Assembly (NCBI GenBank): GCA_017470985.1 | Contig: JAFUXA010000017.1 | Span: 1 to 38,592, forward strand | Direction of reading: 5' to 3' | Source: Lachnospiraceae bacterium | GTDB lineage: Bacteria > Bacillota > Clostridia > Lachnospirales > Lachnospiraceae | Length of the DNA stretch: 38,592 nt | Shown: positions 6,306 through 25,200 of the stretch, in pieces | Position numbering within the stretch: the first letter of the stretch is position 1 | How the letters are laid out: every line of letters begins with the position of its first letter | Program-made: the position numbers and the translations under genes | Notes under the pieces: model-generated | What the model saw: the letters and a program-made list of their open reading frames with translations, nothing else | Told to the model about the DNA's origin: nothing | The model's database searches: none

Positions 6306-7094
6306 ATGAGTAATATAAAATTAATTGCTACTGACTTGGATGGGACACTTATCAGAGGATACAGACCTGATTGTTCCGAGGAAGCTATCAGGCTTATGAG
6401 TCAGTTGGTGGCAAAAGGTGTATATATAGTTCCTGCCAGTGGCAGACAGTATTTTAATCTGAGCAATATGTTCGCAGATGTGGGAGGGGATCTGCTTTAT
6501 ATATGTGAAAATGGAGCTCTTGTAATGTATGGAGATAAGGTGGTTCTCAAGAATTCCTTTGACAGAGAACTGGCTCTTGCAATATGCCATATGGTAATTG
6601 ATAATCCATACTGTGAGGTTTTGATTTCGGGAGAGCGGACCTGCTATATCATGCCTGGAAATCCTGAGTATGAAGATCATCTGAGAAATGGTATCAAAAA
6701 TGATGTGACTGTAGTAAATGCCCCTGAGGATATTAAGGAAGACATTATCAAAATCTCTTATTTCGTTCCTGAGGATAAATGTGCAGAGGTGACAGAAGAA
6801 TTCTCCAAGGCTGTGGAGGGTAAATGTATAATTGCCGTGTCAGGAAATGAGTGGGTGGATTTCGCTCCATTTGGAACTTCAAAGGGTGATGCATTGCAGG
6901 CCATTGAGGAGAAGCTGGGCATACCTCGTGAGGATATGGCAGCCTTTGGTGATAATGAAAATGATAGAACTATGCTACAATTCGTAGGTCATCCATATCT
7001 TATGGCAGATGGCAATCCTACAATGATGGATTTGGATGTGCCAAGATGCACAAGTGTGGAGGAAGAGTTACGACATATTCTAGAATCTTTATAA
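6306..7094 (+). CDS. Cof-type HAD hydrolase (sugar-phosphate or flavin phosphatase-like)
   Basis: The 262-residue protein carries HAD motif I as TDLDGT (nucleophile D10, acid D12), motif II SGRQY, motif III Lys193 in SKGDAL, and motif IV GDNEND (D216, D220). The long cap between residues 80 and 185 identifies the Cof (type IIB) group, which dephosphorylates sugar phosphates, pyridoxal phosphate or FMN-type substrates; the substrate cannot be told. The ATG follows GAGAAAGG. Its stop codon lies inside the TATAAT of the promoter for the downstream RNA (7090-7095). Confidence 0.9.
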   Translation: MSNIKLIATDLDGTLIRGYRPDCSEEAIRLMSQLVAKGVYIVPASGRQYFNLSNMFADVGGDLLYICENGALVMYGDKVVLKNSFDRELALAICHMVIDNPYCEVLISGERTCYIMPGNPEYEDHLRNGIKNDVTVVNAPEDIKEDIIKISYFVPEDKCAEVTEEFSKAVEGKCIIAVSGNEWVDFAPFGTSKGDALQAIEEKLGIPREDMAAFGDNENDRTMLQFVGHPYLMADGNPTMMDLDVPRCTSVEEELRHILESL

Positions 7095-7095
7095 T
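7068..7095 (+). promoter_or_regulatory. Sigma-A promoter for the rod RNA / dus unit
   Basis: TTACGA (7068-7073), a 16-nt spacer and a consensus TATAAT (7090-7095). The -10 overlaps the stop codon of the HAD gene. Transcription would begin near 7102-7103, about 15 nt before the RNA's closing helix. Confidence 0.6.
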
Positions 7096-7102
7096 AGTTT
7101 TA

Positions 7103-7370
7103 GATTTTTGCGTTAGACTGGTTTTGAGAGGGTGGTGTTTCAATTAATAATCAGCCGCTACTTCTTAAAGGTCCGGTATTCTGTGTGATTAAAATCAATA
7201 GTGGCCGTTGCGGTGTTTGAGGACCGAAGAAGCTTAGAGGCTGCTTGCAGTCCTCTTGGCTTCTTGGGCCGAGTTCGCGAGGCTACATTGATTTATCACT
7301 AAGGAATGCCGGAGCTTTCTAGAAGTATCGGCATTAATGAAACACCACCTTGCTCAAAACCAGATTATTT
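7103..7370 (+). ncRNA. Unassigned rod-shaped structured RNA upstream of dus
   Basis: The 300-nt gap between the HAD gene and dus is filled by one nearly continuous hairpin (helices span 7118-7363). Paired arms from outside in: 7118-7128/7353-7363 (11 bp), 7131-7141/7339-7349 (11 bp), 7143-7148/7333-7338, 7154-7157/7329-7332, 7159-7165/7321-7327, 7172-7181/7304-7313 (10 bp), 7185-7189/7295-7299, 7194-7199/7287-7292, 7201-7206/7281-7286, 7208-7212/7276-7280, 7227-7233/7259-7265, and a tip at 7236-7256. Several G-U pairs and small bulges point to RNA rather than a DNA palindrome. A consensus -10 sits upstream. No U-tract follows, so it may be cotranscribed with dus or processed. It lacks the SRP RNA and RNase P signatures I know. 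A 6S-like RNA is possible but I cannot assign it. Confidence 0.7.
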
Positions 7371-7394
7371 CAATAATTAATAAGGAAACAGATT

Positions 7395-8474
7395 ATGAAA
7401 CTTTACTTGGCGCCTCTTGAGGGAGTAACTTCATACATTTTGAGAAATGCAATAGCACATCATTATGGTGGCTTTGACAGGTATTTTACACCATTTATCA
7501 CAAGCGCCACCATGAACCATCGTGAACGGGAAGATGTGGATGTGGCTCATAATGCTGACATTGATCTGGTCCCCCAGATTATGTCCAACAATGTGGAAGA
7601 GTTTTTAGATATTGCAGCAAGTATTGCCAGACGGGGATATGAGACTGTGAATCTGAATCTGGGTTGTCCTTCCAAAACTGTGGTGGGCAAGAAAAGAGGC
7701 TCAGGATTTCTTTCAGTGCAGTATGAACTTGATGAATTTCTTGCAGAAGTATATGACAGATGCCCTGTGAATATATCCATCAAAACCAGATTGGGAATGG
7801 ATGACTTGAGTAAGTGGCCGGAGATTGTTGAGATATATAGAAAGTATCCTATGGAGGAGCTGATCATTCATCCTCGCATTCAGAGAGAATTCTACAAGGG
7901 AGTTCCTCATATGGATGAGTTCGTATATGCATGTGAGCAATTGAGCGATACTGATATCCCGATTTCTTATAATGGAGATATTGTAGATATTAAAAGCTAT
8001 ATAAATCTATTAAATCTTCTGAGAGAGAATAATATAGAAAATGTAACTTCCGTCATGATTGGAAGAGGTGCTATGGCCTTGCCAATGCTTGCCAGAGATA
8101 TAATAAAATATGAGATGGAAAATGTGACGGACAACAATGTTGATGCGGGAATCAACAATACCATAAATGCCTTGAACTCAGAGGATGGAGGATTTGTGGC
8201 ATATGACCAAGAATTGGTAAGCCATAGGTTTCTGTCAAATGATAATGAAGTGAAAATGTTTTGGATATTTCACAATGAAATCCTGGATAATTATATAGAG
8301 ATTATGTCAGGGGATACACCGACTCTATATAAGATGAAGGAGCTGTGGGTATATTGGCAGAGGCTATTTGATTCTGTTTCTGATTTCAAGAAAATATATA
8401 AGAAGATATTGAAGGCCAAAAAGATTGATGAATATCTGGCTGTGGTAGAACATTTGAAAAACATATGTGCATAA
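7395..8474 (+). CDS. tRNA-dihydrouridine synthase family protein
   Basis: This 359-residue FMN enzyme reduces uridine to dihydrouridine in tRNA D-loops. It shows the TIM-barrel flavin motif YLAPLEGVT at residues 4-12, the NLGCPS loop with catalytic Cys91, KTRLGM, HPR, YNGDI and IGRGAM, in the usual Dus order. The C-terminal 90 residues form the helical tRNA-binding domain. An AAGGA site precedes the ATG. The gene follows the rod RNA with only 31 nt between. Which uridine it modifies is not readable; it is more divergent than DusB. Confidence 0.9.
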   Translation: MKLYLAPLEGVTSYILRNAIAHHYGGFDRYFTPFITSATMNHREREDVDVAHNADIDLVPQIMSNNVEEFLDIAASIARRGYETVNLNLGCPSKTVVGKKRGSGFLSVQYELDEFLAEVYDRCPVNISIKTRLGMDDLSKWPEIVEIYRKYPMEELIIHPRIQREFYKGVPHMDEFVYACEQLSDTDIPISYNGDIVDIKSYINLLNLLRENNIENVTSVMIGRGAMALPMLARDIIKYEMENVTDNNVDAGINNTINALNSEDGGFVAYDQELVSHRFLSNDNEVKMFWIFHNEILDNYIEIMSGDTPTLYKMKELWVYWQRLFDSVSDFKKIYKKILKAKKIDEYLAVVEHLKNICA

Positions 8475-8479
8475 TAAAG

Positions 8480-8528
8480 AAGTCCTGTGAAATGTGATAT
8501 TTATTTATCACAAGTCACAGGACTTTTA
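8480..8528. terminator. Bidirectional terminator between dus and crt
   Basis: AAGTCCTGTGA (8480-8490) pairs with TCACAGGACTT (8515-8525), with an inner TGTGAT/ATCACA stem. T-runs on the plus side and A-runs on the other serve both convergent genes. Confidence 0.88.
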
Positions 8529-22209: not shown

Positions 22210-25200
22210 ATGTACAAAAAAGTATCAACTGATCTAAATTTTGTAGAACGCGAAAAAGCAACAGAGAAATTCTGGAGCGACAATGACATTTTCCGTAAGA
22301 GTATGGAAAATAGAAAAGAAGGAGAGACATATACATTCTATGATGGACCTCCTACAGCAAATGGTAAGCCACATATTGGACATGTGCTTACTCGTGTAAT
22401 CAAGGATATGATTCCTCGTTACCAGACAATGAAGGGTAAGTATGTACCTCGTAAGGCTGGATGGGATACACATGGTCTTCCTGTTGAGCTTGAGGTGGAG
22501 AAGCTTCTCGGATTAAATGGTAAGGAACAGATTGAAGAATATGGTATGGAGCCATTCATTGACAAATGTAAAGAGTCAGTGTGGAAATACAAGGGTATGT
22601 GGGAAGATTTCTCAGGTACTGTTGGATTCTGGGCTGATATGGATGATCCATATGTAACTTATGATGATAATTTTATAGAGTCAGAGTGGTGGGCTCTTAA
22701 CCAGATCTGGAACAAGGGATTACTTTACAAGGGATATAAGATTGTACCTTATTGTCCTCGTTGTGGTACTCCACTTTCATCTGCTGAGGTATCTCAGGGA
22801 TATAAGACTGTAAAGGAGAGATCTGCTATTGTTCGCTTCAAGGTTGTAGATGAGGATGCTTACATTTTGGCATGGACAACAACACCTTGGACATTGCCAT
22901 CCAATGTGGCTCTTTGTGTAAACCCTGATGAGACTTATCTCAAGGTCAAGGCTGTAGATGGATATACATATTATATTGCCGAGGCTCTTGCTGATAAAGT
23001 TTTGGGACAGCTTCTTGAAAAGGATGCTGAAGGTCCTGCTTACGAAGTACTTGAGACATACAAGGGTACAGATTTAGAGCACAAGAAATATGAGCCACTT
23101 TATGACTGCGCTAAGGTTGATGCAGACAGACAGAAGAAGGAAGGCTTCTATGTAGTATGTGATACATATGTAACTATGACAGATGGTACTGGTATCGTAC
23201 ATATTGCTCCTGCCTTCGGTGAGGATGATGCTAATGTAGGACGCAACTATGATTTACCTGTAGTCAAGATGGTTGATGAGAAGGGATGCATGTTGGAGGA
23301 GACTCCATTTGCAGGAATGCGTTGTAAGCCTACACAGGATGAAATCAACAGAGGTGCTATCTCTGCTGATCCTGAGGTAATCAAGGATTTATCAGCTCGT
23401 AAGCTTCTCTTTGATGCGCCTAAGTTCGAACATGAATATCCACATTGCTGGAGATGTGATACACCACTTATCTACTATGCTAGAGAGTCATGGTATATCA
23501 AGGAAACAGCAGTTAGAGATGATCTTATTAGAAATAATAACACAGTAAACTGGATTCCTGAGTCTATTGGTAAGGGACGTTTCGGTAACTGGCTTGAGAA
23601 TATTCAGGATTGGGCTATCTCAAGAAACCGTTACTGGGGAACTCCACTTAATATCTGGGAATGTGAGGATTGTGGACACAGAGAATCAATCGGCAGCCGT
23701 GCAGAACTTGCTGAGAGAAGTGGCAATCCTGAAAATGCCAAGGTTGAGCTTCACCGCCCATATATTGATGCAGTTACATTTACATGCCCTGACTGTGGTA
23801 AGACAATGAGAAGAGTACCAGAAGTTATTGACTGCTGGTTTGATTCAGGTGCAATGCCATTTGCACAGCATCATTATCCATTTGAGAACAAGGAATTATT
23901 CGAGCAGCAGTTCCCTGCTAAGTTTATTTCAGAGGCTGTTGACCAGACTCGTGGATGGTTCCACTCACTTATGGCTGAGTCTACATTATTATTTAACAAG
24001 GCTCCATACGAGAATGTAATCGTATTGGGTCATGTACAGGATAAGAATGGTCAGAAGATGTCTAAGTCCAAGGGCAATGCAGTAGATCCTTTTGAGGCTC
24101 TTGAGAAATATGGCGCAGATGCAATCAGATGGTACTTCTATATTAACTCAGCTCCATGGCTTCCAAACAGATTCCATGGTGATGCAGTATTAGAGGGACA
24201 GAGAAAGTTCATGGGAACATTGTGGAACACATACGCTTTCTTTGTTCTATATGCCAATATTGATGAGTTTGATGCTACAAAATATGAGATGGATTACGAT
24301 TCACTTACAGTAATGGATAGATGGTTATTGTCTAGACTGGCTACTACAATCAAGGAAGTGGATACAAATCTGGGTAATTATAGAATTCCTGAGGCTGCCA
24401 GAAGTCTTGAGAAATTCGTAGATGATATGTCTAACTGGTATGTACGCCGTAGCCGTGAAAGATTCTGGGCAAAGGGCATGGAGCAGGATAAGATAAATGC
24501 TTATATGACTCTGTATACAGCTCTTGTGGAAATTTCCAAGGCAGCAGCACCTATGATTCCATTTATGACAGAGGAAATCTATCGCAATCTTGTATGCTCG
24601 GTTGATGCTTCAGCTCCAGAGTCAATTCATCTGTGTGACTTCCCTGAAGTGAAGACAGAGTGGATTGATGAGGAATTAGAGTCGAAGATGGAAGTGGTAC
24701 TTGAAGCAGTTGTACTTGGTCGTGCTTGTAGAAATACATCCAATATCAAGAATCGTCAGCCAATCGGTCAGATGTATGTAAAAGCTGAAGAGGAAATCTC
24801 TCAGTTCTACCTTGATATCATTCGTGATGAGTTAAATGTCAAAGCTATTGAGTACAAGTCTGATGTAAGTGATCTTACTTCATATAACTTCAAGCCACAG
24901 CTCAAGACCTTGGGCCGTCGTTTCGGTAAGAATATCAATGCTGTAAAGGAAATCCTGGCTAATTTGGATGGACAGGCAGCAATGAAGGAATTGAAGTCTG
25001 AGGGAACTCTTACAATTACAGTTGATGGAGTTGCTGAGGCTCTTACAGAGGAAGATTTGCTTATTGAAGCTGCAGAGGTGGAAGGCTTCGTGTCAAATAC
25101 TGATCATGGTGTAACAGTAGTACTTGATACTAATATGACACCTGAACTTCTTGAGGAAGGCTTCGTTCGTGAGATTATCTCAAAGGTTCAGACTATGAGA

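Follow-up and report, generated by a model that had tools for sequence, protein, structure and literature searches.

The gap upstream of the dihydrouridine synthase gene (dus) in this Lachnospiraceae bacterium holds a rod-shaped fold-back sequence. With modest confidence, we assign it to an unlisted family of intergenic fold-back elements that are dispersed in genomes of this bacterial family, each built on a rod of ~190–200 nt with conserved bulges and loops. The window analyzed here is a 38,592-nt stretch of DNA carried by genome G000, and the genus sample consists of this genome and two others, G001 and G002. Unrelated neighbours, occurrence in both orientations, the presence of filled and empty sites, and many copies in G012, a genome from another genus of the same family, together point to a small dispersed fold-back repeat. 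In the genus, complementary outer arms flank the rod, and these arms vary from locus to locus. No description of such an element in this bacterial family was found in the titles and abstract openings of the papers returned by our searches of an open-access library.

Structure and Position of the Rod

An earlier note made from the sequence alone had described a 246-nt unbranched rod filling the gap upstream of dus, and folding confirms it. Positions 7103–7370 of the + strand fold at −140.1 kcal/mol compared to a shuffled mean of −72.1 (sd 5.1), a z of −13.3 that none of 200 shuffles equalled, and the fold is a single unbranched run of helices that include G-U pairs and are interrupted by bulges and small internal loops. 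The gap contains no ORF of at least 60 aa. The minus strand is also stable (−111.2 kcal/mol, z −12.3) because the rod is nearly a palindrome, and the strand in Table 1 is the better match to our family models, with covariance-model scores of 122.4 bits for the + strand and 24.2 bits for the − strand. The note's failure to recognize a known family also stands, as no Rfam family reached its gathering score in the rod and the 4 matches at E values up to 10 were all far below gathering.

The consensus TATAAT that the note placed ahead of the rod is present as a hexamer, but the −35 that precedes it at 17-nt spacing is a poor one (GTTACG, 3/6) and it was absent from a promoter scan of 6900–7500, which returned 3 promoter-like sites where 1.5 are expected from shuffles. 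Terminator-like sites (a short G+C-rich stem followed by a T run) numbered 0 across 6900–7500. Downstream of dus, an inverted repeat with a terminal T run at 8480–8527 resembles an ordinary intrinsic terminator. Elsewhere in the window, positions 67–137 at the left end match the Rfam group II intron family RF00029 with 43.9 bits (gathering 40), and a model match at 24169–24273 was set aside at only 14.6 bits.

Table 1. Parts of the rod, its surroundings in the window, and the three loci with rods in the genus.
Feature	Position	Strand	Basis or occurrence
Whole rod, 246 nt	7118..7363	+	Paired region in fold; strand from better match to family models
Core, 199 nt, common to rods at the asnB and rsmE loci	7141..7339	+	196.4 bits
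5′ outer arm, locus-specific	7118..7140	+	Fold and comparison
3′ outer arm, complementary to 5′ outer arm	7340..7363	+	Fold and comparison
ACUUCU, conserved, pairs with UAGAAGU side	7160..7165	+	Alignment
CCGUU (CCGAA in asnB rods), 5′ side of first conserved internal loop	7205..7209	+	Alignment
GUUUGA, 5′ side of second conserved internal loop	7215..7220	+	Alignment
CUUG tetraloop, apical	7244..7247	+	Fold and alignment
GAGUU, 3′ side of second internal loop	7271..7275	+	Alignment
GCGAGG, 3′ side of first internal loop	7277..7282	+	Alignment
UAGAAGU with conserved bulge	7320..7326	+	Alignment
TATAAT, possible −10 with weak −35, overlaps HAD gene stop codon	7090..7095	+	Read in sequence
Neighbour, Cof-type HAD-IIB hydrolase gene	6306..7094	+	ORF and protein matches
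Neighbour, dihydrouridine synthase gene (dus)	7395..8474	+	Pfam Dus, E 2.2e-30
HAD/dus locus			Rods in G000, G002
Asparagine synthase-like (asnB)/HflX locus			Rods in G000, G001, G002
RsmE/cysteine desulfurase locus			Rods in G000, G002

Copies within the Genus

A DNA search with the window rod found a second copy in G000 and rods in G002 and G001, while the third locus was found only after a search with R1, a covariance model built from four rods. R1 located seven rods across 3/3 genus genomes (three in G000, three in G002, and one in G001), and the same seven were returned by R2, which was trained only on the seven genus rods, placing the copy number in the genus at 1–3 per genome, a low number that speaks against the dispersed-repeat reading. 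The three loci, with gene names assigned from one genome each, are unrelated, and the copies are intergenic. A rod accompanies dus in 2/3 genomes, and rods are found elsewhere in 3/3. No rod was found by sequence reading or by models R1 and R2 in the dus gap (102 bases) or the rsmE gap (83 bases) of G001. Filled and empty sites are both present among relatives, a pattern in which insertion and loss look alike.

The direction of the core varies among the genomes. At the asnB locus, gene order and model strand place the core of G000 opposite to those of G001 and G002, and the cores of G000 and G002 are 97–100% identical only when one is reversed, and otherwise 73–88%. The rsmE-locus core also runs in opposite directions in G000 and G002, whereas the dus-locus core has the same direction in both. 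There is a small residual chance that these reversals come from a palindrome mis-oriented in assembly. The outer arms at asnB/hflX (L003, L006, and L013) are wholly unlike in G001 compared to G000 and G002, yet are complementary within each genome.

Structural Constraint and Conservation

In all seven genus rods the core measures 196–199 nt between its outermost conserved bulges. The alignment of homologous rods that the earlier note proposed does reveal covariation, with 33 of 63 pairs changed on both sides and 93.2% of cells pairing when the seven rods are aligned with MAFFT. Covariation scores 0.529 in this alignment, where shuffling gives a mean of 0.227 and 0/500 shuffles as high, although the structure comes from a prediction on the very same columns, which favours it; sliding the partners by 1–3 columns gives at most 0.122. 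The number of further pair types was not above shuffling in this alignment (153/500 as high). With a distant rod from G012 added, the count becomes 41/63 pairs and the score 0.580, in an alignment fitted to the model. Among the conserved unpaired parts are CCGAA/GAGG (CCGUU in the dus rods), GUUYGA opposite AGU (GUCUGA in one copy), an A bulge beside AAUCAAU, and UUAG[A/U]AGU or UAGAAGU.

The core is more conserved than the silent sites of its neighbours at all three loci. Between G000 and G001, the asnB core is 89.8% identical (177/197) compared to 39% and 50% at the 4-fold degenerate sites of hflX and asnB, respectively, and 60-column stretches just outside the core drop to as low as 45–74%. 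The asnB core is 99.0% identical between G000 and G002. The ~400 bp around this rod (L003 ~1380–1790 vs. L013) are 93–100% identical in the same two genomes, with neighbouring 4-fold sites at 54–61%, so the identity of the core there may be owed to recombination, and the ~400-bp stretch is perhaps a recombination tract. The dus and rsmE cores are 94.5% and 93.4% identical, with 4-fold sites of dus at 76% and of the desulfurase at 62%. That the core is better conserved than neighbouring silent sites suggests that it does something useful, possibly in trans. When rods from different loci of G000 are compared with one another, identity is only 63–77%, which indicates that the copies are old.

The + strand has the more stable fold in 7/7 genus copies, and over the seven rods G-U outnumbers A-C by 25 to 12. 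The two dus copies account for 12 to 0 of this and the other five for 13 to 12, so the excess is owed almost wholly to the dus copies, and we regard the strand asymmetry as weak. It is weak also in a further strand comparison, which is biased because its reference structures had been folded on the + strand.

Relatives outside the Genus

Searching 40 genomes with R2 identified L043 in G012 with 37.8 bits (E 3.1e-5 for G012), a rod with a z of −11.3 and the same loops as the genus rods. A third model that includes L043 (R3) was run on 397 genomes with stricter filters and detected L181 in G107 (50.7 bits) and L182 in G325 (35.8 bits; 28.7 with R2; 19.0 on the opposite strand); R3 also gave a weak match in G012, L180 (24.6 bits, E 0.07). 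From these model scores, L182 can tentatively be called a further family member. Positions 1440–1700 of L182 form a very long near-perfect hairpin (−129 kcal/mol) downstream of a chorismate mutase/prephenate dehydratase gene. An order-wide sample searched with strict filters gave a match in 1/392 genomes, that being G000. Several weak model matches were set aside, namely those in G047 and G041, that in G126, which is a terminator-like hairpin, and those in G150 and G287, which are short terminator-like hairpins.

L180 and L181 have an outer motif in common, and L043 carries a variant of it. G012 carries this 17-base motif at 33 places, 18 of them forward and 15 reverse, and the reversed control at none. 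The motif was found in 11 of the 397 genomes, once each in the 10 besides G012, and the reversed control pattern has one match in each of 8 other genomes. G107 alone of these 10 has a rod, with no such rod seen by eye in the other nine (L185, L188–L195). Eleven G012 loci were examined (10 of the 33 places and L180), of which 7 hold complete 192-nt copies, 2 hold forms with internal deletions, and 2 are cut by the locus ends; L196/L197 and L202/L204 are near-identical, and each pair is perhaps one site assembled twice. The G012 sequence (L187, L196–L204, and L180) is a 192-nt palindromic repeat with further complementary ends, and several copies lie near contig ends. These terminal ends are shared among the G012 copies but not with or among the genus rods. 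No target-site duplication was seen by eye at the copies inspected. Where neighbours are present on both sides, G012 copies sit between genes on either strand, and the outer arms of L200 show paired changes.

Kinship of the genus rods to the G012 repeats is drawn from the model scores and from 6 of 24 comparisons between genus and distant rods that beat every structure-keeping null, with the remaining 18 not doing so. L200 against the asnB rod scored 31.0, where the null mean was 13.5 and the highest of 200 was 22.5 (17.5 for the other strand), and L043 against the dus rod scored 21.5 with a highest null of 21.0. On the expected strand, R2 with filters off gives the G012 and G107 copies 6.5–37.8 bits, and the bottom of this range lies within background.

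Carriage by mobile DNA was also considered. Neither the window element nor one G012 copy had a blastn match among phages and plasmids. Scanning viral contigs with four patterns returned 1, 119, 11, and 1 stretches. The single match of the first pattern falls within an ORF on a phage-like contig, and that of the last pattern did not fold into such a rod. For the 119-stretch pattern, of which 80 stretches were listed, and the 11-stretch pattern, motif-enclosing pairs were counted in 110 distinct matches across all collected loci; the known rods had 61–68 such pairs and the best of the rest 39.

Alternative Explanations

The high-copy dispersed relatives in G012 make a repeat element the first pointer, ahead of the new ncRNA class that the earlier note had listed among its options. 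It is nonetheless conceivable, though on balance we doubt it, that the rods are a small family of trans-acting structured RNAs, with 1–3 genes per genome and loops that bind protein or RNA. Each copy would then be its own transcription unit, making gene order and direction irrelevant, and this would fit the independence from neighbouring genes, the covarying helices with conserved internal loops, the conservation of the core above neighbours' silent sites at three loci, and the greater stability of the + strand throughout the genus. It sits poorly with the window copy, where no conserved promoter or terminator was found, with a G-U excess that is nearly all from the two dus copies, with the two G001 sites that have no rod, and with the many dispersed copies in G012, which are unlike an RNA gene. 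A more speculative idea, to which we give a small chance, is that of a mobile rod-shaped structured RNA that spreads or functions via folded RNA or single-stranded DNA with its conserved internal loops, and that multiplied in one genus and in another was tamed to become a conserved RNA indifferent to orientation. In long palindromes one arm can be corrected by the other, and a functionless fold-back insertion whose arms are kept complementary by template switching would explain how the asnB outer arms differ fully between G001 and G000 and are still complementary. We consider such a neutral relic improbable, as bulges and loops hold their place and sequence across loci and genera, and the asnB core is far above silent sites and flanks over the G000–G001 split.

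The remaining two readings fare worse. The earlier note had suggested a cis element of dus, and the rod does lie 31 bases ahead of the dus start, and its direction there is shared by G000 and G002. That it serves as a cis-regulatory leader of dus, or solely as terminator or processing site for the HAD-dus operon, is nevertheless very improbable: the other five genus rods are at two other loci in both directions, related rods lie beside asnB/hflX, rsmE/cysteine desulfurase, galE, and topoisomerase III-like genes in either direction, dus in G001 has no rod in its gap, and the terminator variant lacks a terminator-like site. The note's other suggestion, a 6S-like RNA polymerase-binding RNA, has rod shape in its favour and nothing more, and we give it almost no credence, since each of the 3 genus genomes has one 6S match elsewhere at 56.7–66.3 bits, above the cut-off of 46.4 (RF00013), and no 6S match was found in the window.

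Comparison with Known Repeats and Possible Function

Enterobacteria, Neisseria, and streptococci are the bacteria in which small fold-back repeats of the dispersed kind are best known, as the excerpts of PMC2229807 and PMC3049150 describe them. ERIC/IRU sequences of enterobacteria are, like the rod, dispersed and form a fold-back when transcribed, and ERIC is reported to affect the stability of co-transcribed mRNA in a way that depends on orientation; they are 127 bp with a different sequence and host group, whereas the rod is ~200–250 nt and low-copy in the genus (PMC2229807, in part). The rod is further set apart from ERIC by internal loops that are conserved and by a core whose direction changes from one species to another. 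The Correia/NEMIS elements of Neisseria are likewise small repeats, whose RNA hairpins are proposed RNase III substrates, but they are ~107/155 bp, the longer form has an IHF site, and the host is unrelated (same excerpts of PMC2229807). Closer in host are BOX, RUP, and SPRITE of pneumococcus, also a Firmicute, which are small interspersed structured repeats, numerous in one species and scarce in its relatives; host and size differ from ours, and the comparison is by description rather than by sequence (PMC3049150, in part). 6S RNA is also a long rod with internal loops, and it differs in having its own match elsewhere in each genome.

If the rod is indeed a dispersed fold-back element, it could have spread as a small non-autonomous element, with the genus copies now kept by selection. 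Read-through transcription would then yield a double-stranded RNA rod, either a substrate for RNase III or a shield for transcript ends, so the rod would tune whatever transcript carries it and would do no sensing for dus. RNase III processing of the rod, which the earlier note had raised, is plausible.

As this case shows, stability and covariation in a fold that precedes a gene do not suffice to identify a cis-regulatory RNA. In one genus the rod seems to be a repeat with many copies, and in another genus of the family what seems to be the same rod is low in copy number and strongly conserved; this contrast would make the taming of a small repeat directly testable.
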